Shown piece by piece: positions 45,845 through 49,217 of a DNA stretch of 64,000 bases. Under the pieces are notes generated by a model. That model saw nothing but the letters and a program-made list of their open reading frames with translations, searched no databases and was not told the origin of the DNA. The DNA is taken from positions 806,001 to 870,000 of the forward strand of contig NZ_UGGU01000003.1 of NCBI RefSeq assembly GCF_900450765.1, written 5' to 3'. Numbering within the stretch: the stretch's first letter is position 1; every line of letters starts with the position of its first letter. Origin of the DNA: Fusobacterium necrogenes (lineage in GTDB: Bacteria > Fusobacteriota > Fusobacteriia > Fusobacteriales > Fusobacteriaceae). The translations under genes were made by a program, and so were the position numbers.

Positions 45845-47290
45845 CTACATTATAGGAGCCAATAATCTACATATTGATTCCTTAAATTTAATATAATATC
45901 CACGCTTACTATACTCACTTCTAAATAATCTGTTACTAAATTCCATATCCTTATGGAAGATCTCTTTAAATAATAAAGCTATATCTTTTTCATAGATATT
46001 TATATTTATTTCAAAATTTTGATAAAAACTTCTATAATCAAAATTAGCTGTTCCTGTTGTAACGACCTCATCATCAATTATTATTACCTTACTATGAATA
46101 AATCCTCTATTATATTTATAAACTTCAATTCCCAAATCAAGTAACTCACCTACAAAATATTGATTTACCCAATATATAAAAAAATGATCAGGCTTACTTG
46201 GAATCATTATCTTTATTTTTACGCCAGAGAGAGTTGCAATTTTTAATGCTTCTAAAAGGTTGTCATCAGGAACAAAATAAGGAGTCTGTATATATATGCA
46301 CCTTTTTGCATCCATAATCAATTTTAATGCATTATCCCTTATAGTTCGAAATTGATAATTTGGACCACTACTTACAACTTGCATATGACCTGTATGCTTT
46401 CCTCTTATTTCAACTAATTTATCCAATACTTCTTTATTATACCTATAATTTTTCTCTACATTAATTTTTTCTTTTTTGACAATATCCCATGAAAAATAGA
46501 ATTCTTGCTCTAATTCTAAACATATTTCTCCTAATATTTTCATTCCTGTATCTCTCCAATAGCCAAGCTTTCCTTCTCCTAAATATTCATCACCTATATT
46601 GAAACCTCCTATATATCCAAGTTTTCCATCAATTAAGCAAAGTTTTCTATGATCTCTATAATTAGCACGTAAATTAGCCATTTTTAAAAAAGGAAAATGT
46701 GAAGGAAAAAATATTCCACTTTCTATCCCAACTTCAGCAAGTTCCTTTAACATTTTTCTATTGTATCCACCAGCACCATCAACTATTATTCTTACTTTTA
46801 ATCCCTCTTTAGCCTTTTCTTTTAAAATATTAACAATTTTCTTACCTAAATTATCATATCTAAAAAGATAGTACTCCATCGATATACTTTCTTTAGCTTT
46901 TTTTAAATCATTCATCATAGAATGAAAAAAACTCTTCCCATCTATAAATATTTCACTTATATTTAGTGATGTTAATTTACTTTTAGAGGAAATTTCAATA
47001 TAAGATATTAGTTGTTCCCATTTTACTAATTCTTTACGCTGTGAAAACCCCATAATTTCTTTACTATATAAAAATTTTCGCCTATAGTATTCGGCTACAA
47101 CTCTTTTTTTTCTGAAACTTAATCCAAAGAATAAATAGGCAATAAATCCAATATATGGAGCTAAACTCAACAATACAATCCAAAACAATGTATATAGAGA
47201 GTTTTTTCTTTCTAAAAGTACAATTATTAAAACAAATATTATATTAATAAACACTATATAGTTGGCAAAAAATCTAATAAATGATTCCAT
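45845..47290 (-). CDS. cls: Cardiolipin synthase
   Basis: 481 residues. Two N-terminal membrane spans, then two phospholipase-D motifs: DHRKLCLIDG and FIHSKVIIIDDEV, each HxK(x)4D. The downstream Asn/Gly residues (GYIGGFNIGDEY; TGTANFDYRS) are present. Condenses two phosphatidylglycerols to cardiolipin at the inner membrane. The start follows GGGGG. Confidence 0.94.
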   Translation of the reverse strand: MESFIRFFANYIVFINIIFVLIIVLLERKNSLYTLFWIVLLSLAPYIGFIAYLFFGLSFRKKRVVAEYYRRKFLYSKEIMGFSQRKELVKWEQLISYIEISSKSKLTSLNISEIFIDGKSFFHSMMNDLKKAKESISMEYYLFRYDNLGKKIVNILKEKAKEGLKVRIIVDGAGGYNRKMLKELAEVGIESGIFFPSHFPFLKMANLRANYRDHRKLCLIDGKLGYIGGFNIGDEYLGEGKLGYWRDTGMKILGEICLELEQEFYFSWDIVKKEKINVEKNYRYNKEVLDKLVEIRGKHTGHMQVVSSGPNYQFRTIRDNALKLIMDAKRCIYIQTPYFVPDDNLLEALKIATLSGVKIKIMIPSKPDHFFIYWVNQYFVGELLDLGIEVYKYNRGFIHSKVIIIDDEVVTTGTANFDYRSFYQNFEININIYEKDIALLFKEIFHKDMEFSNRLFRSEYSKRGYYIKFKESICRLLAPIM

Positions 47291-47424: not shown

Positions 47425-48231
47425 ATGAAAAGCTTTTTTAGTAAGTTTGAAAAAGAACAAAAATTTAATCTCTTCAGTGGAGATTTTTTAAATAAACTAT
47501 CTGGTTACCCAACTAGAAGCGATATTTCTGAAGCTATATTATCTGAAATTAAAAATTCAGTCAGAAATTATATCAAAGATATGAGTTCTTTTTCTGATAT
47601 AGTTCAAGCTTATCTTGATTCTGTTGTAGACACAAAAAAAAATTTAGTTAGGCAAATTAAAGAAAATTATGAATATAGATATAATACCAATTTAGAAATT
47701 TATGATAATATCATCTCTTCTAATCATTTTAAAACTATATTCACAATCAATTTTGATACTATTTTAGAAAATAACTTTCCTAATACTATCACAAAAATAA
47801 CTCCATGTCAGTTAAAGGAAATTCAAGATGATAAAATTGGGTATTATAAATTTTTTGGTGACATAAATAATGTAGGAACTGTCTTTATCTCTAGCCAAGA
47901 TATTAGAAAATTGAAAAGTTTAGAGTTTTATGATAATTTCTTCAATAAAGTTAGGAAAGAATTTGAATTAAGACCAACTTTATTTTTAGGTATCAGTTTA
48001 GAAGATTCTGATTTATTAGATATTTTAGATTTTATAGCTGCTCCTATAAAAAACTTACAACCTTTATATATGGTCACTTCTACTACAATTATCAGTAGTA
48101 AAGCAGCTGAATTAATTAACAAATATAATATCAAACTTATCACTTTCGGAACTAAAGATTTTATTGATTATTTTAAAGAGATTTCGAAAAAAGCTATTAA
48201 TATTTCATCTGAAAAAAAGATTGTGTGGTAG
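47425..48231 (+). CDS. SIR2-like domain protein with degraded catalytic motifs
   Basis: 268 residues in frame zero. SIR2_2-type landmarks in order: LFSGDFLNKLSGYPTR (residues 16-31) where active members have F-GAG-S--SG-P; IFTINFDTILE (105-115) for the TxNxD motif; YYKFFGDINN (140-149) where active members have a catalytic His in K-HG; and LFLGISLEDSD late in the domain. Both the GAG and the catalytic His (Phe144 here) are lost, so NAD hydrolysis is doubtful and a binding role is more likely. AGGTGA precedes the start. The 3' end has a strong -1 frameshift signal that joins it to the next ORF. Confidence 0.75.
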   Translation: MKSFFSKFEKEQKFNLFSGDFLNKLSGYPTRSDISEAILSEIKNSVRNYIKDMSSFSDIVQAYLDSVVDTKKNLVRQIKENYEYRYNTNLEIYDNIISSNHFKTIFTINFDTILENNFPNTITKITPCQLKEIQDDKIGYYKFFGDINNVGTVFISSQDIRKLKSLEFYDNFFNKVRKEFELRPTLFLGISLEDSDLLDILDFIAAPIKNLQPLYMVTSTTIISSKAAELINKYNIKLITFGTKDFIDYFKEISKKAINISSEKKIVW

Positions 48232-48265
48232 TACCAGAGGAAAGTACTCCCAAAAATACTACCAC
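48213..48265 (+). promoter_or_regulatory. Candidate programmed -1 ribosomal frameshift signal
   Basis: In frame zero the codons GAA AAA AAG give the slippery heptamer A_AAA_AAG (48213-48219), the same as in E. coli dnaX. A 5-nt spacer (48220-48224) is followed by GTGGTAGTA (48225-48233), a 23-nt loop and the perfect complement TACTACCAC (48257-48265). The zero-frame stop TAG lies inside the stem. Slipping back one base moves into the next ORF, open from 48213, giving 265 + 332 = 597 residues. Confidence 0.7.
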
Positions 48266-49217
48266 TTCTGAAATAAAAGAAAGTACTAATAATATATTAA
48301 AATTAGATTATACTCTTTCTACTAAAGACGAAATTACTTCAACGAATGAAATAGAAAATAAAATACTTAAAAACTCTGATTCAGATATAATAGAAATTCC
48401 TTTTATAAAAGGTATCGAAACAGGATTAGAAATCTCGTATACTTCACTTAAATTAAAAGAATTTCCTTTAAAAGAAAATAATCTTCCTCTCTATGAAGAT
48501 ATTATTGAAAATATAAGTTTAAATAGTTGTAATTTAAATATAAATAATTTAACTCTTTTTAATGTTAACATTAGAGTTTTAAATTATAAAAAATTTAAAC
48601 TCATTGAATTTAAGACAAGAGAATTTAAACTAGCCTTAAGCATTCAACTTTTTGATGATAAAACAATAAGAAAAGCTGGAGATTATTTTAGCTATGAGAT
48701 TTTTAGTAAACTTAAAGACATCAGGCTTATAGCTGTTGCAAATATTTTTAAACTAATTTTTTCTGGTGAAGTTATAACTTTTAATATAAATGATTTAGTT
48801 GCTGAAATTCAATTTGAAAATCCTATTCAAGTTCATAAGTTTGATAAAATTATTGAGAGTGTAAAAAAATATGAAGAAACTATGAAGCTTCTTCATATAT
48901 CTAAATGGAGAAATTTTTCTGAAGCTTCTATAAAATTCTATACTCTTCATCTTCTTCATAATTATATAAATAATATTAGAAGCATAGATACTTGGATCAA
49001 CTTCAAACTCTATAATAAATATAACATCAAACCAGGAGATAAAATCTCTTTTACAAGAATACATGAACTAAATATTCGTGGATTTAATTATAATTTAAAA
49101 GAAGAAGTTAGTATTAAATCTAGTATATCTAATACAGAAATTGATAACGAAAAAAATTTTGTATTTGGTTACAGAAAAATAGTTAATCTAAAACTGACAA
49201 CTATTCAAAAATATTAA
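48225..49217 (+). CDS. Unrecognised protein, probably the C-terminal half of a SIR2 fusion made by frameshifting
   Basis: 330 residues if it began at the GTG at 48225, but no Shine-Dalgarno lies before that codon, and the first Met is deep in the protein (in YEETMKLLHISKW). Translation by -1 frameshift from the SIR2 ORF is the better explanation. A low-complexity Thr/Ser/Glu linker (about residues 1-55) leads to a beta-rich region (SLNSCNLNINNLTLFNVNIR; FKTREFKLALSIQLF) and then helices (FDKIIESVKKYEETMKLLHI). I recognise no family, metal site or membrane span. It is followed after 24 bases by the RelA/SpoT gene. Confidence 0.6.
   Translation: MVVPEESTPKNTTTSEIKESTNNILKLDYTLSTKDEITSTNEIENKILKNSDSDIIEIPFIKGIETGLEISYTSLKLKEFPLKENNLPLYEDIIENISLNSCNLNINNLTLFNVNIRVLNYKKFKLIEFKTREFKLALSIQLFDDKTIRKAGDYFSYEIFSKLKDIRLIAVANIFKLIFSGEVITFNINDLVAEIQFENPIQVHKFDKIIESVKKYEETMKLLHISKWRNFSEASIKFYTLHLLHNYINNIRSIDTWINFKLYNKYNIKPGDKISFTRIHELNIRGFNYNLKEEVSIKSSISNTEIDNEKNFVFGYRKIVNLKLTTIQKY

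Follow-up and report, generated by a model that had tools for sequence, protein, structure and literature searches.

Comparative evidence for programmed −1 ribosomal frameshifting in a SIR2-like gene of Fusobacteriaceae

The SIR2-like locus, its products and its neighbours

Within the window (the whole stretch of 64,000 nucleotides that was analysed), a zero-frame ORF for a SIR2-like protein is overlapped by a −1-frame ORF that comprises a linker and a C domain and is followed by a probable co-operon gene of the RelA/SpoT type (Table 1). The zero-frame codons of the overlap are TCT GAA AAA AAG ATT GTG TGG TAG. The heptamer, 5-nt spacer, 9-bp stem and stop within the stem that were described in the initial annotation all proved exact when the sequence was read again, and the second ORF was open in the −1 frame as claimed. 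The proposed product sizes, 268 aa for the short form and 597 aa (265 + 332) for a fusion, were likewise correct. The annotation had further stated that the second ORF lacks a ribosome site; this held with the added detail that a −1-frame GTG (48225–48227) lies inside the stem but is without a Shine-Dalgarno sequence.

Table 1. Features of the SIR2-like locus, with positions in the window.
Feature	Position	Strand	Evidence or remark
Divergent gene, conserved context	45845..47290	−	Same flank in genera g1, g6, g8 and g9; other side in g4
Zero-frame ORF, 268 aa, SIR2-like short product	47425..48231	+	PF13289 SIR2_2, 63.1 bits, E 4e-17
−1-frame ORF (linker and C domain)	48213..49217	+	334 open codons; stop 49215–49217
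Slippery heptamer A_AAA_AAG, zero frame	48213..48219	+	Sequence; identical in 22 genomes, four genera
Spacer, 5 nt, ATTGT	48220..48224	+	Sequence
Linker	48220 to about 48410	+	Part of −1-frame ORF
Candidate stimulatory stem, 5' arm GTGGTAGTA	48225..48233	+	Fold z −3.5; 10/10 congeners with compensatory changes
Zero-frame stop TAG, within stem 5' arm	48229..48231	+	Sequence; TAG/TAA exchange compensated on 3' arm
Candidate stimulatory stem, 3' arm TACTACCAC	48257..48265	+	Fold and covariation
C domain, family without assignment	about 48411–49214	+	Conserved across family
Probable co-operon gene for a RelA/SpoT-type synthetase of 257 aa	49242..50015	+	PF04607, 73.8 bits vs cut-off of 27

The C domain is under purifying selection near the level of the N domain, as was evident from dN/dS values of 0.10–0.23 for the −1-frame codons of the C domain and 0.06–0.15 for the N domain. 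The corresponding values for the acidic linker were 0.3–1.1, and this region, between two conserved domains, evolves almost neutrally and differs in length between species, being almost absent in some and reaching about 250 codons in others. Nine genomes had no ATG, GTG or TTG anywhere from the slip region to the C domain, among them one (G001) with a linker of 236 codons and another (G021) in which the linker is almost absent; translation of the C domain from a start codon of its own therefore cannot be the general rule. Ribosomes could in principle reinitiate at GTG 48225, or at another in-frame codon past the stop, and so yield the C domain as a separate protein, and a GTG or ATG does occur four codons into the −1 frame, near the stop, in six genomes. 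However, besides lacking a Shine-Dalgarno sequence in the window, this codon is missing from g4, g14, G001 and others, and reinitiation leaves unexplained both the invariant heptamer described below and the fusion of the two domains in one ORF in other lineages. Given this and the nine linkers devoid of start codons, we regard reinitiation as very improbable.

The RelA/SpoT-type gene begins 3–27 nt past the C domain in most species, and relatives of it were found in 57 of 61 family genomes, in some of them without adjacency to the SIR2-like gene. In 35 aligned sequences the synthetase motifs RxK, D99, GYRS and E182 were invariant, and the position of the Ser in the RelP motif RxKxxxS was occupied by His71 in all 35. 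This protein was much better conserved than its SIR2-like neighbour. A functional tie between the SIR2-like gene and the alarmone synthetase, suggested by gene order, is a speculation. The divergent gene on the other side is presumably cardiolipin-synthase-like, judged from reading its sequence. In g14 and g5 the SIR2-like gene comes instead after a different gene, which on similar reading we take to resemble Lon protease.

Domain identity, distribution and architecture

The initial annotation of the first domain as SIR2-like was borne out as to relationship: the PF13289 score was well above the curated cut-off of 24.5 bits, and an N-domain profile matched the SIR2 domain of ThsA (6lhx, E 4.8e-12). 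Enzymatic function fared less well. F144 of the window protein (YKFFGD) aligned with the His of ThsA YKMHGD, which we take to be the catalytic His of SIR2 enzymes, and this position was F, L, M, N or Y in 16 of 16 aligned SIR2-like proteins. The Asn of TTNYD was present in the window (TINFD) and replaced by Asp in most g4 sequences. Because the catalytic His is missing, standard NADase activity is unlikely for this domain; a role as a ligand-binding or assembly module may be suggested speculatively. For the −1-frame ORF, no Pfam family, SLOG included, was matched above its cut-off, and a profile search of the PDB with the C domain returned nothing credible. Structure predictions of the two domains from two-row alignments were poor, with pLDDT values of 39.8 and 44.4.

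Relatives of the N-terminal protein were detected in 51 of 61 family genomes (43 of 47 among those of good quality), as a single copy in each with the exception of G031. In that genome the locus appeared twice with equal match scores, near 14 kb and 1.8 Mb, at opposite ends of a 1.8-Mb contig (G031:C1, L066 and L067), which is probably an assembly overlap and no duplication. The C-domain profile matched 52 family genomes and none of 37 other genomes of the phylum. Thus, within the phylum as sampled (61 family and 37 other genomes), the gene is confined to the family, of which it is a core gene, and it is not in an evident defence island.

Comparison of 50 loci indicated the same order of SIR2-like domain, variable acidic linker and C domain in every intact member, with the second domain in the −1 frame in 32 of 47. 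In 28 of these members, from six genera, a zero-frame A_AAA_AAG or A_AAA_AAA joins the domains; in four more, from two genera, the frame is broken without a slip site of that type. The form A_AAA_AAG, exactly 16 nt 5' of a zero-frame stop that always appears as NGG TAR, was noted in 22 genomes (10 of g1, 10 of g4 and one each of g11 and g8), while site variants occurred in g8, g5 and g14. In four of seven g8 members, and in g2, g12 and g13, a single ORF encodes both domains, which indicates that the fused protein is functional and also that not every species requires two products. In a phylogeny of 47 members, in which some deep branches were long and of unsure placement, the slip state was parsimoniously ancestral except for the g13 outgroup, with losses later. 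A further candidate for a one-ORF member, G032 (L041), was rejected as a counter-example and grouped with the members that carry the signal. There an A10 run at the end of the SIR2 domain sets both domains in one frame, and removal of one A restores the usual layout (A AAA AAG CTC TCT CGG TAA); slippage, phase variation or assembly error could each account for the run.

The slip site and its candidate stimulators

In-frame A_AAA_AAG was common in the window as such (13 in 17,797 codons), and just one of the 13, that at 48213, combined a long −1 frame with a strong downstream fold. Thus, the −1 frame was open for 334 codons at 48213 as opposed to 3–28 at the other 12, and the downstream fold had a z of −4.4 at 48213 whereas none at the other 12 fell below −2.2. 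The 9-bp stem itself had a fold of −16.7 kcal/mol, a value not equalled in 200 dinucleotide shuffles. Since a TGA in the −1 frame directly 5' of the heptamer sets an upstream bound, any shift must happen within about 16 nt of the zero-frame TAG. No stimulator resembling a Shine-Dalgarno sequence was noted in the window about 10 nt upstream of the heptamer (ATTAATATTTCA).

In a codon alignment of the 22 genomes with A_AAA_AAG, Lys264 was AAA and Lys265 was AAG in 22 of 22, although AAG accounts for just 12–20% of Lys codons in the genera concerned. Only 4 of 26 conserved degenerate columns were codon-invariant, and two of these four were the Lys codons of the heptamer. By these codon counts, the slip site has been kept beyond the need of the protein.

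The stem was present in 10 of 10 species of the genus to which the window belongs (fold z −1.8 to −4.5; p 0.003–0.03 per species against shuffled downstream sequence). It comprised nine or ten uninterrupted pairs around a loop of 11 to 29 nt, and three of the pairs were altered on both strands within the genus. One consists of the third stop base and its partner, G-C in five species and A-T in five, and the others are a T-A/A-T and a C-G/T-A exchange. The check proposed with the initial annotation, alignment of homologues, thus gave the outcome expected of a programmed site and not of a mutation, as split and stem were conserved with compensatory changes.

The competing explanation offered there is that a single long ORF was broken in the A7 run, by gain or loss of one base or by a sequencing error. 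It draws on the one-ORF relatives and on the tendency of A runs to gain or lose bases, as in the A10 of G032. It is opposed by the recurrence of the break in 28 slip-site members from six genera and in four others of two genera, by its occurrence in dozens of independent assemblies, many with A6 instead of A7, by purifying selection on both sides of the break, by the covarying stem and by the closeness of the TGA in the −1 frame to the TAG in the zero frame, which lie within 16 nt of each other. Recurrence and selection together exclude a sequencing error or pseudogene, and an indel, refuted for the family as a whole, retains next to no probability.

The candidate stimulators varied between genera. 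Nine of ten g4 species had a Shine-Dalgarno-like GAGG about 10 nt upstream, with no clear stem, and G053 of g8 had a stem of 12 pairs with a long loop. A clear stem was not found in g4, g11, g14, g5 or G018, and no clear stimulator of any kind in G018, g14 or g5. The site of g6 (L057 in G028, L060 in G016) was degraded to CAA AAA CAG, which retains an A_AAA tetramer and is followed directly by a hairpin of about 11 pairs; possibly this is a case of a tetramer assisted by a stronger stimulator. In E. coli, A_AAA ranked lowest of four frameshift-prone Z_ZZN tetramers (PMC4066793). Members of g9 (L064 in G019, L066 in G031) kept the frame break with an overlap of 19–22 nt and a hairpin (GAGGA..TCCTC). 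At their junction (GGT GAT GCY ... TAT GCC TRA), neither a slippery heptamer nor a Z_ZZN tetramer was present, and a search for identical-codon bypass gave nothing convincing.

Run lengths also bear on programmed transcriptional slippage, in which RNA polymerase adds or drops an A and the fusion arises by ordinary decoding of the changed transcript. In bacteria, such slippage has been described where nine A stand in a row (PMC5009743), and relatives of the gene carry A9 (g14, g5 and two g1 species), A8 (two g8 species) or A10 (G032). The run is A7 in the window, however, and A6 followed by G in two congeners and nine g4 species; moreover, transcriptional slippage would leave the invariant AAG, the covarying stem and the fixed distance to the stop unexplained. 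While possible in the A9 and A10 relatives, it is thus unlikely in those with A6 or A7, and as an account of the gene in general it is improbable.

Probable programmed frameshifting, its precedents and its meaning

The signal and its conservation, the stem covariation, the selection on both frames and the lack of usable start codons were computed directly. With a conserved site, a covarying stem and a coding −1 frame, this comparative computation points to programmed −1 ribosomal frameshifting of the X_XXZ_ZZN class, the reading first advanced in the initial annotation, with a probability of roughly 0.9. Ribosomes would read GAA AAA AAG and pause at the stem that holds the zero-frame stop in its first strand. 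In a fraction of them, both tRNA-Lys would re-pair one base back on A_AAA_AAG and translation would go on in the −1 frame, while the remaining ribosomes would terminate four codons past the heptamer. Two products with a common N-terminus would result, the short SIR2-like protein and a fusion of about 597 aa that consists of SIR2-like domain, linker and C domain; the ratio of the two is probably set. From these patterns we infer the frameshift event, its efficiency and the need for both products. Mixed assembly of the two, like that of tau and gamma of dnaX, is the favoured though speculative mechanism, and the assembled short and long forms may possibly work with the RelA/SpoT synthetase.

The closest mechanistic parallel is E. 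coli dnaX (tau/gamma), which shares A_AAA_AAG, a stem a few nt downstream and two products with one N-terminus; the GAGG of g4 adds a further likeness. In E. coli, A_AAA_AAG shifts more readily than a number of other heptamers of A or U, and 5' Shine-Dalgarno stimulators act in dnaX and in many IS elements (PMC5009743). Unlike dnaX, the SIR2-like gene has its stop inside the stem, has no Shine-Dalgarno stimulator in the window and encodes an unrelated protein, and of its two products the longer results from the shift, as reported for a minority of dnaX genes (PMC5009743). The dnaX gene of the same genome is one ORF and so could not serve as an internal positive control. Similarly, orfA/orfB of the IS3 family combine an A_AAA_AAG-type site with a structure, and the shift gives a longer fusion, whereas the present gene encodes no transposase and is a single-copy core gene in conserved context. 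Thoeris ThsA, an NADase with SIR2 and SLOG domains, has a detectably related SIR2 domain; it differs from the present protein, in which the catalytic His is missing, the C domain has no Pfam match and a RelA/SpoT gene lies next door.

Clusters in the GeneTack survey resemble this family in a conserved frame transition with a slippery motif and fused homologues elsewhere (PMC3711429). The survey covered 4 Fusobacteria genomes and clusters of at least five genes, so that it could hardly have picked up a family restricted to Fusobacteriaceae (PMC3711429). No report of frameshifting in this SIR2-like gene family was found in the open-access literature. The mechanism is of a known kind; the gene family and the turnover of stimulators are, as far as could be checked, new.

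To our knowledge, conserved programmed frameshifting in bacterial chromosomal genes beyond dnaX, prfB, transposons and phages is rare. The SIR2-like gene offers a strong comparative case, being a family-wide core gene and a long natural experiment, with the slip site fixed, the stimulator varying (stem, Shine-Dalgarno-like sequence or longer A run) and some lineages reverting to one ORF. The reason for which a cell requires the SIR2-like domain in free as well as in fused form is thereby made testable, for a pair of products whose gene sits beside that of an alarmone synthetase. A bolder proposal, which we consider doubtful, is that the slip rate itself may serve as a sensor, stalling at Lys codons or altered tRNA-Lys supply shifting the ratio of short to fused product and this ratio governing the synthetase. 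If that were true, a core operon of Fusobacteriaceae would contain a switch responsive to the state of translation, and g9 would have swapped the slip site for an undescribed frame-changing device.
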